Part shown: piece after piece, positions 27,589 through 31,754 of the stretch
How positions within the stretch are numbered: position 1 is the stretch's first letter
How the letters are laid out: the number at the start of each line of letters is the position of its first letter
Source of the DNA: Alphaproteobacteria bacterium
GTDB taxonomy: Bacteria > Pseudomonadota > Alphaproteobacteria > Caulobacterales > Maricaulaceae
NCBI GenBank assembly: GCA_016124665.1
Contig: WGNH01000005.1
Coordinates: forward strand, 1-64,000
Reading direction: 5' to 3'
Length of the DNA: 64,000 nt
The notes under the pieces: model-generated
Told to the model about the DNA's origin: nothing
The model's database searches: none
What the model saw: only the letters and a program-made list of their open reading frames with translations
Program-made: the position numbers and the translations under genes

Positions 27589-28272
27589 ATGCCGCCCATG
27601 ATGTTCGAGCTTTTTCTTTCTCTCGTCCTGCTGGCACAGGACGCACCGGAGGCTGACACGGATTCAGCGCCGGCCGGAGCGGCTGTGACGGCTTTGTCTG
27701 AAATCGAGACGGCCAGCCCGGATGTTTTTGACACGGAGGCCGCGCTGACCGGAGTCAATGGCTGGCTGAACAGCGTGGAAACCTATCGCGCCCGCTTCAC
27801 CCAGATTGCCCCGGACTTCTCTGCCTCGACCGGAATTTTGTCGATCCGCCGGCCGGGCCGTTTGCGGTTCGAGTATGATGCCCCTTCTCCTCTGCTGGTC
27901 GTCGCTGATGGCACAACCGTCGCGATCGAGGATGCGGATCTGGAAACGGTTGACCGTGTGCCCCTGAGGTCCACGCCGCTGTGGTGGCTCCTGAAGCCGG
28001 ACGTCAATCTGAGCGAAGACGCGAATGTCGGTGATGTCTGGCAGGAAGACGGCTTTATCTATGTCGCAATGCAGGACCGGAATGAGGAGATGGACGGCAC
28101 CGCCCTGTTCGCCTTCAACCCGGAGACGTATGCGCTGGAAGAGTGGTTCGTGACCGATTCACTGGGCTATACGACGCGGGTGACACTGTCGGATGTCGAA
28201 ACCGGTGTGCGTCTGAACCCGCGGCTTTTCGTCCTGGACGAGCCGGAAGACGACCGACGCCGGCGCCAGTAG
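27589..28272 (+). CDS. lolA: outer-membrane lipoprotein carrier protein LolA
   Basis: A 227-residue periplasmic chaperone that carries lipoproteins from LolCDE to the outer membrane. A short signal peptide (FELFLSLVLLAQ) is followed by an Ala/Glu-rich stretch of about 45 residues not usual in the family. Then comes the LolA core: YRARFTQIAPDFSASTGILSIRRPGRLRFEYDAPSPLLVVADG is typical. lolA near ftsK is a common arrangement. Confidence 0.9.
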   Translation: MPPMMFELFLSLVLLAQDAPEADTDSAPAGAAVTALSEIETASPDVFDTEAALTGVNGWLNSVETYRARFTQIAPDFSASTGILSIRRPGRLRFEYDAPSPLLVVADGTTVAIEDADLETVDRVPLRSTPLWWLLKPDVNLSEDANVGDVWQEDGFIYVAMQDRNEEMDGTALFAFNPETYALEEWFVTDSLGYTTRVTLSDVETGVRLNPRLFVLDEPEDDRRRRQ

Positions 28273-28375
28273 CGATCACATTCTGTTACAATTTGTGTAA
28301 CATTAATGATACATCCAAATTCTTTCTGTTTTTTCATTTGCACATTTTTTAGCTCCGTGTCTTTAATGTAACGGC

Positions 28376-28524
28376 TGATTGGGGCGCTGGATTGGCGTCG
28401 TCCCCCCGCTGACGGATCTGCCGTCCCGATCGCACCGGAATCCCCTCCCGGTGCATGCGCACAAGTTCAGACGGCGCACAGCGAACGCCCGGCCGCATCC
28501 CCTCGCGGCCGGGCGTTTTCTTTT
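28376..28524 (+). ncRNA. candidate small RNA with repeated C-rich anti-SD loops
   Basis: The 307-base gap between lolA and uppP has an AT-rich first third and then a GC-rich, non-coding-looking segment. The latter ends in a very strong intrinsic terminator. A hairpin at 28432-28454 (GCACCGG/CCGGTGC) has loop AATCCCCTC. The terminator hairpin has loop ATCCCCTC, the same 8-base motif. A further C-run, TCCCCCC, lies at 28401-28407 in a possible first hairpin. TTGCAC about 20 bases before TTAATG upstream (about 28339-28370) could be the promoter. Loops rich in CCCCTC are typical of bacterial small RNAs that pair with Shine-Dalgarno sites. No known family is recognised. An alternative is a long uppP leader with attenuator. 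Confidence 0.45.
28484..28524 (+). terminator. strong intrinsic terminator before uppP
   Basis: AACGCCCGGCCGC pairs over 13 bp with GCGGCCGGGCGTT around an 8-base loop (ATCCCCTC), followed by TTTCTTTTTC. It ends either the lolA transcript or, more likely, the candidate small RNA that precedes it. Confidence 0.9.
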
Positions 28525-28579
28525 TCGTCACGACTTGGGGGCAAGAAGATAAGATCAATTCCGGCCTCAAGAGACACCC

Positions 28580-29380
28580 ATGCCACTGTCACAACTCCTG
28601 CTGCTCGCCCTGGTGCAGGGCCTGACCGAATTCCTGCCGGTTTCGTCCTCTGCGCATCTCATTCTCGCGCCGATCGCTGCCGGACTCGAGGACCAGAGCC
28701 CGCTCATCGATGTCATGGCCCATGGCGGCAGCCTGATGGCGGTGCTGGTCTATTTCTGGCGTGACATCCGCGATGTGGCCCTGGGCAAGCTGGCCTGGCT
28801 GTCAGGCCGGATGACGCCCGGAGGACGGCTGGCGCTGCTGGTCGGCGCCGCCACGCCGCCCGTCATCATCGCCGCAGGAGCGCTTTATCTGACCGGCCAG
28901 ACCGATCTCTTCCGCTCGCCTCTGACTATCGGGATTGCGACCCTTGTATTCGCGGTCCCGCTCTGGGCCGCAGACCGCTATGGCCGCACGCACATTACCG
29001 CTGAAACGCTGAGCTATCGCAGTGCTTTCCTGATCGGTCTGGTCCAGGTTTTCGCGCTGATCCCCGGAGCCAGCCGCTCCGGCGTGACGATGACAGCCGG
29101 GCGGGCGCTGGGACTTGGCCGCAGTGAATCAGCCCGGTTTTCCATGCTGATGGCGATCCCGGTGATTGCCGCTTTCGCGCTGGTCGCCGGGCTGGACCTG
29201 GCGCAGGGCGGCGATGGCAGGGCAAGCCTGGCGGACGGGCTGATCGTGGCGGTGCTGTCATTCCTGGCGGCATGGGCCTCGATTGCCGTGATGATGCGCT
29301 TTGTCGAGCGCGTCGGCTTTCTGCCCTTCGTGATCTACCGCGTGCTTCTGGCCGGGCTCATTTTCTGGCTGCTGGTCTGA
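28580..29380 (+). CDS. uppP: undecaprenyl-diphosphatase (UppP/BacA)
   Basis: A 266-residue inner-membrane phosphatase recycling the undecaprenyl pyrophosphate lipid carrier for peptidoglycan and polysaccharide synthesis. The signatures ALVQGLTEFLPVSSSAHLIL at the N-terminus and FALIPGASRSGVTMTAGR are both present, with Glu and Ser/Arg residues of the active site. About eight membrane helices. It begins 56 bases after the strong terminator, so it must have its own promoter close by. Confidence 0.96.
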   Translation: MPLSQLLLLALVQGLTEFLPVSSSAHLILAPIAAGLEDQSPLIDVMAHGGSLMAVLVYFWRDIRDVALGKLAWLSGRMTPGGRLALLVGAATPPVIIAAGALYLTGQTDLFRSPLTIGIATLVFAVPLWAADRYGRTHITAETLSYRSAFLIGLVQVFALIPGASRSGVTMTAGRALGLGRSESARFSMLMAIPVIAAFALVAGLDLAQGGDGRASLADGLIVAVLSFLAAWASIAVMMRFVERVGFLPFVIYRVLLAGLIFWLLV

Positions 29381-30353: not shown

Positions 30354-30539
30354 CAGCCAAATGCCTCCGGAAAGCGTTCAAGAAGATGGCCTGCATAGAC
30401 CAGAAATCGGCGCGCCTGTCCATGCGGCACTGCGTTTCGCATTCCCGTGGCGCGCGAACCGACTCCTCATGGCCGGATCGCGGCGCTAGGCTGGCTGTTA
30501 ACGAAAACAAGAATGTGACGACCGGGGTGAGTTGAGGGG

Positions 30540-31754
30540 ATGACGGCAGAGGTTGCCTTGCTGAACAAGCAGGCCGTGGCACTGGCCGCGGACTCCAAGG
30601 CTACGTTCGGCTCGGGCATGAGCATCAAGACCTATGACAGTGTCGACAAGCTGTTCAACCTGTCGCGCACCCACCCGGTGGGGGTGATGATCTACGGCAA
30701 TGCCGAATTCATGCGCGTGCCATGGGAAGTCATCATCAAGGAATTCCGCGAGCGCCATGGCGGCACCGGCCATGACACCATTGCAGACTGGGGCGAGGCG
30801 TTCTTCGACTTTGCCGGGACATTCCACGATTTCACCCTGCGCGATTCCGAGCTGGCGGTGTTTACCAAGACCGCCTCCTTCCTGCGGGCGATCGAGGCCA
30901 GCGCGCTGGTCAACCGCTCGCTGGAACCGCTGATCAGCGATGTCGAGGCGCGCCGCGTCCATCCGGCGCTGGCGGACCTGACCGAGGGCGAATTCCTGCG
31001 CCATTTCCCGGATCTCCTGGAAAAATACCAGGGCCTGCTGCACGCGCGCATCGGCGAGCGGATGAATACCGACATCAAGCGGCAATTACCGCGCCTTTTA
31101 CACCGTCTGGCGGTCGCCGACATCGAGACCGTGGCGCGTTCCGGCCTGGTGGTGGCGGGCTTTGGCGCAGAAGAGACCTTCCCGGCGCTGGTCAATCTGG
31201 AAAGCGACGGCGTGATTGCCGGGCGGCTGGCCGTGTCGGTGCGGTCGGAAAGCCAGATCACGGTCGATCATCCGGCCGACGTTCTGCCCTTTGCGGTGCG
31301 CAATGTGATGATCTCCATGGTGCACGGCGTGGATCCGTCCTTTCTGGACTATTCGCTCACCGTGTTCCGCGATCTGATCCGCGCCAATGGCGACCGGCTG
31401 ATCAATGAATTTGCCAAGAGCGAGCAGGAGAAATCGCGCCTGCATCATGAGAATTCGGCCATGTCGGATGATTTCATCCGTATCTTTCTCGATTATCTGC
31501 GCGATTATATCCAGGACATGCATCTGGGGCCGTTTGCCTCGACCCTGCAGGGCATGCCGCCGGACGAGATGGCGTGGCTGGCCGAGTCGCTTGTGCATCT
31601 GACCTCTGTTAAAATGCGCATGTCGCTGGGTCCGGAAGGCGTCGGGGGGCCGGTCGACACCGCCGTAATTACCAAGCGTGAAGGCTTCAAATGGGTCAAA
31701 CGCAAGGCGCCGATAGAGGCGCTGACGGGACCCGGACCGGGGAAAGGGGACTGA
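30540..31754 (+). CDS. Ntn-hydrolase (proteasome-fold) family protein, uncharacterised
   Basis: A 404-residue protein whose first 60 residues match the 20S proteasome beta / HslV pattern. It starts Met-Thr, which would leave Thr1 exposed after Met removal. Asp17 (in ALAADSK) is at the canonical position, and a lysine in VDKLFNLS at position 36 corresponds to proteasome Lys33. PVGVMIYGNAEFM and VVAGFGAEETFPAL also fit the fold. The C-terminal 170 residues are an extra helical region not present in proteasome subunits. It could be a self-compartmentalising peptidase or an amidohydrolase; its substrate is unknown. The start region TTGAGGGGATG combines the ribosome-binding site and start codon and is exactly complementary to the loop of the candidate RNA at about 28.4 kb. 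Confidence 0.65.
   Translation: MTAEVALLNKQAVALAADSKATFGSGMSIKTYDSVDKLFNLSRTHPVGVMIYGNAEFMRVPWEVIIKEFRERHGGTGHDTIADWGEAFFDFAGTFHDFTLRDSELAVFTKTASFLRAIEASALVNRSLEPLISDVEARRVHPALADLTEGEFLRHFPDLLEKYQGLLHARIGERMNTDIKRQLPRLLHRLAVADIETVARSGLVVAGFGAEETFPALVNLESDGVIAGRLAVSVRSESQITVDHPADVLPFAVRNVMISMVHGVDPSFLDYSLTVFRDLIRANGDRLINEFAKSEQEKSRLHHENSAMSDDFIRIFLDYLRDYIQDMHLGPFASTLQGMPPDEMAWLAESLVHLTSVKMRMSLGPEGVGGPVDTAVITKREGFKWVKRKAPIEALTGPGPGKGD

Follow-up and report, generated by a model that had tools for sequence, protein, structure and literature searches.

The window (the whole 64,000 nt stretch of DNA analysed, from contig WGNH01000005.1) carries a probable RNA gene between lolA and uppP, and the features of this locus are listed in Table 1. 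The RNA consists of four hairpins according to its predicted fold and a terminator scan. The last of these is the terminator at 28483–28518, a 14-pair stem followed by TCTTTTTCGT; a sequence-only reading of the locus had given the stem as 13 bp. The region 28376–28530 folds at −76.9 kcal/mol (z = −3.96), and none of 200 shuffled sequences was equally stable. The structure presents three C-rich loops (GUCGUCCCCCCGC, AUCCCCUC and AUCCCCUC), and in the ensemble the C residues at 28402–28407 have unpaired probabilities of 0.74–1.0, the bases at 28440–28447 of 0.73–1.0, and the terminator loop is likewise unpaired.

Table 1. Features of the lolA–uppP region and of a candidate target site in the window.
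Feature	Position (nt)	Strand	Basis
lolA, outer-membrane lipoprotein carrier, upstream neighbour	27589..28272	+	PF03548, E = 4.7e-29
Inverted repeat GTTACA-ATTTG-TGTAAC, candidate regulator site	28285..28301	+	read off the sequence
Promoter-like TTGCAC, 18 nt spacer, TTTAAT, in block GTGTCTTTAATGTAAC	28338..28367	+	upstream regions compared by eye
Small RNA	28373..28525	+	extent of covariance-model match; start inferred
Stem-loop 1	28377..28431	+	fold; helices 1–4 covary
Stem-loop 1 core GGCGTCGTCCCCCCGCT, C-rich apex	28394..28410	+	loop conservation; C-run unpaired
Stem-loop 2	28432..28454	+	fold; helices 5–6
Stem-loop 2 loop ATCCCCTC; with the next CC, counterpart of the RusT seed	28440..28447	+	
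Stem-loop 3, weak	28456..28478	+	fold; outside the structure of the covariance model
Rho-independent terminator, C-rich loop 28497–28504	28483..28525	+	helix 7, 14 pairs
uppP/bacA, downstream neighbour	28580..29380	+	PF02673, E = 1.3e-63
Candidate target site GAGGGGATG, complementary to loop ATCCCCTC; start of gene 30540–31754	30534..30542	+	

Several features named by the sequence-only reading were recovered as described. The identical loop ATCCCCTC occurs exactly at 28440–28447 and again at 28497–28504 on the + strand, the second copy being the terminator loop. The upstream C-run, which had been mentioned in passing, is CCCCCC at 28402–28407, and it falls within the part of stem-loop 1 that varies least in families f1, f4 and f5. 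No credible reading frame had been seen, and the frames that cross the region in the ORF list of the window are short (41–73 codons) and mutually overlapping. The 8-mer ATCCCCTC is not rare in itself, with three occurrences on both strands of the window compared to 3.13 expected.

The proposal of a possible promoter held in part: a sigma-70 consensus scan called none before the RNA, but an arrangement resembling −10 and −35 boxes recurs upstream of the RNA in relatives when these regions are compared by eye. Of the 88 upstream regions, 45 contain the sequence ACA.GCAA, where 100 mononucleotide shuffles gave a mean of 0.52 and a maximum of 4; it is not present upstream of the RNA of the window itself. 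By eye, the −35-like box follows it at about 18–20 nt, and many copies show it overlapping an arm of a GTGACA..TCACA repeat. Many relatives have GTGACA..TCACA followed by GCAA, whereas the window has GTTACA-ATTTG-TGTAAC slightly further upstream and without GCAA. Our guess is that the upstream motif is a site for NtrX.

Distribution, synteny and covariation

A BLASTN search of 60 genomes (its own included) with nt 28350–28530 gave matches in 36 at E ≤ 0.1, many of them short pieces, and in nine, including its own, at E < 1e-12. A covariance model (R1) was built from ten sequences, that of the window and those of nine relatives in its family; in their consensus fold, 14 of the 37 pairs showed changes on both sides in one or more sequences. 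At E ≤ 0.01, R1 matched 225 of the 398 genomes of the order, and a broader model trained on copies from the order of the window (R2) matched 265 of the 398 at E ≤ 0.001, the weaker matches in both counts not having been checked individually. R2 gave no match in 133 of the 398, including all those listed for genera g2, g6, g8, g11, g12 and g18 of the window's own family.

Among the first 37 loci compared, lolA was detectable in 17, and the element lay within 420 nt after it in 16; in the seventeenth (L025) the model placed it about 490 nt past the end of lolA. LolA was then sought in 35 chosen genomes and found in all of them, and 30 of these loci were fetched. The element followed lolA in 26 of the 30 and was not found after it in the remaining four (L079, L090, L094 and L095). 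Two of the genomes concerned (G240, with L079, and G178, with L095) have an R1 match elsewhere, an apparent relocation. A scan for relatives of LolA gave a further 33 loci, mostly Caulobacter, of which 32 carry loop 2 by motif search; it was not found in L119, where the contig ends inside lolA, and the terminator pattern failed in L122.

A set of 88 copies was selected for comparison, leaving out the four lolA loci without an element, near-duplicates (e.g., L009, L068, L073 and L074), L155, where lolA was not found, and fragments at contig ends (L059, L060 and L141–L143). All 88 match R1 at E ≤ 0.002, and all have, on the same strand, LolA upstream (81 copies), Xth at most 1.34 kb downstream (65 copies), or both. 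Both neighbours are found in 58 copies, LolA only in 23 and Xth only in 7; as 28 of the 88 were obtained by way of LolA (23 from the chosen genomes, 5 from the LolA-relative scan), these are no independent test of synteny. The distance from the end of the LolA match to the RNA is 75–230 nt in the 81 copies, while Xth begins 13–1336 nt downstream, so that other genes may intervene. In 5 of the first 37 loci, all of the same genus as the window, uppP replaces xth downstream of the RNA. At L021, a piece between the RNA and xth (nt 1388–1433) resembles part of the Brucella sRNA CI408 (RF02599) at 38.5 bits, compared to a gathering threshold of 398, and is perhaps a dispersed repeat.

In a wider search at E ≤ 0.01, R2 found matches in 82 of 385 genomes of the class. 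Twenty-nine of these loci (L171–L199) were inspected, two of which belong to the window's order, and 18 outside the order were relied on; these are from 18 genomes in seven families, with matches at E ≤ 2.7e-9. Fifteen of the 18 have LolA (12) and/or Xth (13) in their fetched flanks on the same strand, and three have neither. The upstream gene in four loci outside the order (L182, L185, L186 and L192) encodes a class-III aminotransferase, and in L187 a frame with a glyoxalase domain lies between a class-III aminotransferase gene and the RNA; xth is still downstream of the RNA in L182 and L187. In a sample of the phylum, 16 of 200 genomes matched at E ≤ 0.001; two lie outside the class, and both of these matches are weak (3.7e-4 and 9.2e-4). 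Two genomes have RNA matches at two contig ends each (G352, contigs C20 and C72; G394, contigs C39 and C25), perhaps arising from the palindromic terminator.

The sequence-only reading had taken the locus for an RNA gene with C-rich loops complementary to Shine-Dalgarno sequences, and had looked to relatives that keep the terminator for conserved loops and covarying stems; both were found in the 88 copies. Compensatory changes on both sides were seen in 35 of the 37 stem pairs, including all 14 pairs of the terminator (helix 7). Over the 88 rows, 92.3% of cells were paired, compared to 73.9% after shuffling and 30.5–47.6% when partners were slid by 1–3 columns, and 523 cells were changed on both sides (shuffled mean 136.8). 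The alignment was fitted to the structure under test, which favours pairing scores, and the excess of covariation was judged too large to come from this fitting alone. The outermost pairs are often unpaired, in 32 of 79 cells for the second hairpin (helix 5) and in 48 of 82 for the terminator.

The three loops differ in how widely they are maintained. Loop 2 is the most general, with TCCCCTCCC in 70 of the 88 copies, or 87 if a loose set of C-rich variants is allowed. The loop 1 sequence GCGTCGTCCCCCCGCT is present in 29 copies (18 of 29 in f1 and 11 of 15 in f4), and the pattern GTYGY-C5-7-GC in 48 (22 of 29 in f1, 13 of 15 in f4 and 13 of 13 in f5). The C-run belongs to a core of 16–17 nt, and this pattern is kept in 48 of the 57 copies of these three families; it is also found outside the order, but in none of the 10 copies of f2 or the 21 of f3, a family which we take to be the Caulobacteraceae. 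The terminator loop contains CCCCTC in 27 of 29 copies of f1 and in 2 of the 59 others, and as ATCCCCTC it is found in the window's sequence only (1 of 88). The exact loop duplication described earlier is confined to the window's sequence.

Relationship to RusT and other small RNAs

No family had been recognised in the sequence-only reading, a view that can be revised, as the position of the locus, its fold, its second loop and copies from intermediate lineages point to the RusT RNA of Caulobacter. RusT (CCNA_R0199) of C. crescentus is an Hfq-stabilised RNA of 118 nt encoded between lolA and xth (PMC11005374). It has four stem-loops, the third of which is the Hfq site, and hairpin 2 (nt 45–57, containing C53) acts on target mRNAs (PMC11005374). 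Repression was weaker when C53 of loop 2 was altered; compensatory changes brought it back for ompW and one TonB-dependent receptor, while regulation of receptor 02895 was not regained (PMC11005374). NtrX occupies the rusT promoter, which drives a reporter, and RusT is raised by iron starvation and by zinc (PMC11005374). The authors aligned RusT within the genus Caulobacter and mentioned closely related Caulobacteraceae (PMC11005374); in the accessible text of the literature searched, no description of it beyond the Caulobacteraceae was found, and this study was the one found to deal with a small RNA next to lolA.

Four strains are common to the alignment of that study and the loci collected here (C. 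radicis 695, C. hibisci KACC 18849, C. zeae 410 and C. endophyticus 774), and all of them, together with C. vibrioides DSM 9893, carry CTATCCCCTCCCGG. When 118 nt are counted back from the T-run, nt 45–57 of the four shared strains read CTATCCCCTCCCG or TATCCCCTCCCGG. The counted nt 53 is a C in C. hibisci and a T in C. radicis, C. zeae, C. endophyticus and C. vibrioides DSM 9893, so the count is inexact, and good to a base or more. Within this precision, the RusT seed corresponds to ATCCCCTCCC at 28440–28449, in hairpin 2 of the window RNA.

Since the lolA–xth slot of Caulobacter holds RusT, with its tested seed on the same C-rich loop, the window element is very probably a RusT ortholog, a trans-acting small RNA in a variant form with three C-rich loops. 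The two share a locus after lolA (directly upstream in the window, though with uppP downstream in this genus), a terminator of their own, four stem-loops, a loop 2 seed with CCCCUCCC and a promoter-like region. The last stem-loop of the window RNA is its Rho-independent terminator, and the third is weak. Sequence homology is moderate: R1 gives the Caulobacter-named copies 23.3–46.6 bits at the syntenic place (25.6 bits for C. vibrioides DSM 9893, E = 4e-4 over 249 kb), and this link depends on intermediates in f2, f4 and f5. The RNAs of the window and of Caulobacter have little in common beyond the terminator and loop 2. The window RNA is about 153 nt long compared to 118 nt for RusT; its loop 1 is GUCGUCCCCCCGC, where Caulobacter has a CCGACC-like loop; its terminator loop is C-rich; its stem-loop 3 differs in sequence; and the downstream gene is xth in Caulobacter rather than uppP. 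Homology rests jointly on locus, fold, loop 2 and the intermediate lineages.

Other known RNAs gave weaker resemblances. Against Rfam 15 (4227 families), three tRNAs were the only matches at gathering level in the window, and there were none in seven relatives, including C. vibrioides DSM 9893. At the window locus, alpha-r14 (RF02344) scored 24.7 bits, below its gathering threshold of 58.8, and ctRNA_pGA1 (RF00236) scored 28.0 bits, below 45. Alpha-r7 (RF02342, gathering 60) gave 24.4 bits at L017 and 21.7 bits at L026, and no row for the window locus. The SisA-D (alpha-R8) RNAs of Caulobacter have a core, UUUCCUCCCU, that is single-stranded downstream of a weak hairpin (PMC12559287). They resemble the window RNA in having an anti-Shine-Dalgarno core, and are Hfq-associated in Caulobacter, but by reading its sequence the window RNA does not contain UUUCCUCCCU.

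The alpha-r14 RNA, or NfeR1, of rhizobia has three hairpins, each with CCUCCUCCC, and these motifs are described as functionally redundant (PMC10746234). Its several hairpins with repeated C-rich anti-Shine-Dalgarno motifs are similar in design to the window RNA, and it was the commonest weak Rfam match (four of ten rows, 23.3–29.3 bits), so that the element might be a member of this family, or might be an anti-Shine-Dalgarno RNA whose likeness to RusT is convergent. This appears very unlikely, given that all four rows are under the gathering threshold, that only tRNAs reach that level, that the loops GUCGUCCCCCCGC, AUCCCCUC and AUCCCCUC differ from the alpha-r14 motif, and that the place beside lolA and xth is that of RusT. 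An origin from the 3′ untranslated region of lolA, in which the lolA mRNA is cleaved to release the RNA and the terminator is simply that of lolA, would agree with the close, same-strand position behind LolA in 81 of the 88 copies and with the failure of the sigma-70 scan to find a promoter. Set against these are the recurrence of the promoter-like block before the RNA, and nine of the 18 strong loci outside the order that lack the end of a LolA match in the 0.7 kb upstream, among them L182, L185 and L186 with their aminotransferase genes. The rusT promoter of Caulobacter is moreover occupied by NtrX and active in a reporter (PMC11005374), leaving this explanation very unlikely. That the locus is just a strong terminator with chance C-rich loops, and no regulatory RNA, has a negligible probability: a single strong terminator is indeed present, but loops 1 and 2 lie upstream of it and are more constant than its own loop, and helices 1–6 covary.

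A different question, compatible with the RusT relationship, is whether the main partner of the RNA in this lineage, a conserved protein or another RNA, is bound by loop 1, with mRNA pairing by loop 2 being secondary. The maintenance of the loop 1 pattern in f1, f4 and f5 and its recurrence outside the order would fit such a role, as would the scarcity of complements to the core in the window's own genome (see below). Caulobacter RusT, however, acts without a loop 1 sequence of the window type, and imperfect pairing with many mRNAs could equally hold the loop constant, so we consider this division of roles unlikely.

Candidate targets and implications

As an ortholog of RusT, and judging from the experiments on that RNA, the window RNA would have a promoter of its own, controlled by a two-component regulator (in Caulobacter, NtrX), and would be held by Hfq, a protein that is encoded in the window's genome. 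The C-rich loop 2 would repress translation of envelope and transport genes by pairing with G-rich stretches at their starts, and loop 1 and the terminator loop may be further contact sites.

Pairing of the loops was examined at 14 TonB-dependent receptor starts and 101 control starts of automatic choice, some of the controls possibly being internal. On raw energy the receptor starts were not favoured for any of the three loops, the medians for loop 2 being −11.0 kcal/mol for receptors and −12.1 kcal/mol for controls (p = 0.85). After correction by shuffling there was a weak lean towards the receptors for loop 2 only, with a mean z of −0.51 for receptors compared to −0.04 for controls (p = 0.033, uncorrected for the three loops), with p = 0.461 for loop 1 and p = 0.107 for the terminator loop.

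The third occurrence of ATCCCCTC in the window, at 30534–30541 on the − strand, is antisense over a ribosome-binding site and start codon. The corresponding GAGGGGATG stretch formed the strongest duplex with stem-loop 2 of the 101 control starts, the start picked there being a TTG further on. A search of 13 genomes recovered the gene that begins here (30540–31754, 404 aa) in 7, each belonging to the genus, and neither Pfam nor NCBIfam gave it a match at E ≤ 0.001. Among the six other genomes of the genus with the gene (comparison of the window with L248–L253 and L255), GAGGGGATG is identical in three, replaced by AAGGGGATG in one and absent in two. On this complementarity, the gene is a possible target of the RNA.

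The 14-base complement of the loop 1 core has no site with 0–1 mismatches in the window's own genome besides the RNA gene. With up to two mismatches allowed, the two strands hold fewer sites (17 + 14) than the reversed control has (42 + 40). At 30 loci that were examined of these 31 sites, the RNA gene included, eight lay near a possible start (within about 55 nt) of a frame of at least 90 codons; these were not taken as targets, seven being inside longer frames on the same strand and the eighth inside a frame on the opposite strand. The exact complement of the ten-base loop 2 occurs at four sites, including the RNA gene itself, compared to two for the control, and none is at a convincing start.

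An RNA studied in one genus recurs at the lolA–xth region in much of the order, and in places beyond it. What is new here is a variant with an unexplained constant loop 1, spread more widely than in the literature found. The comparison gives a handle on the parts of RusT that matter: nearly all copies retain the loop 2 seed, while a second loop, which three families hold constant, is altered in the organism studied experimentally. A covariance model is now possible where no Rfam 15 family reached its cut-off. It is conceivable, as a tentative and rather doubtful proposal, that Caulobacter RusT is a reduced form of an RNA present across several orders of Alphaproteobacteria, with a near-constant first-hairpin loop (GCGUYGYCCCCCCGCU) whose second function, involving a conserved protein or RNA partner, was lost or altered there. 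If so, the window RNA would be a two-function RNA, of which the Caulobacter model shows only half.
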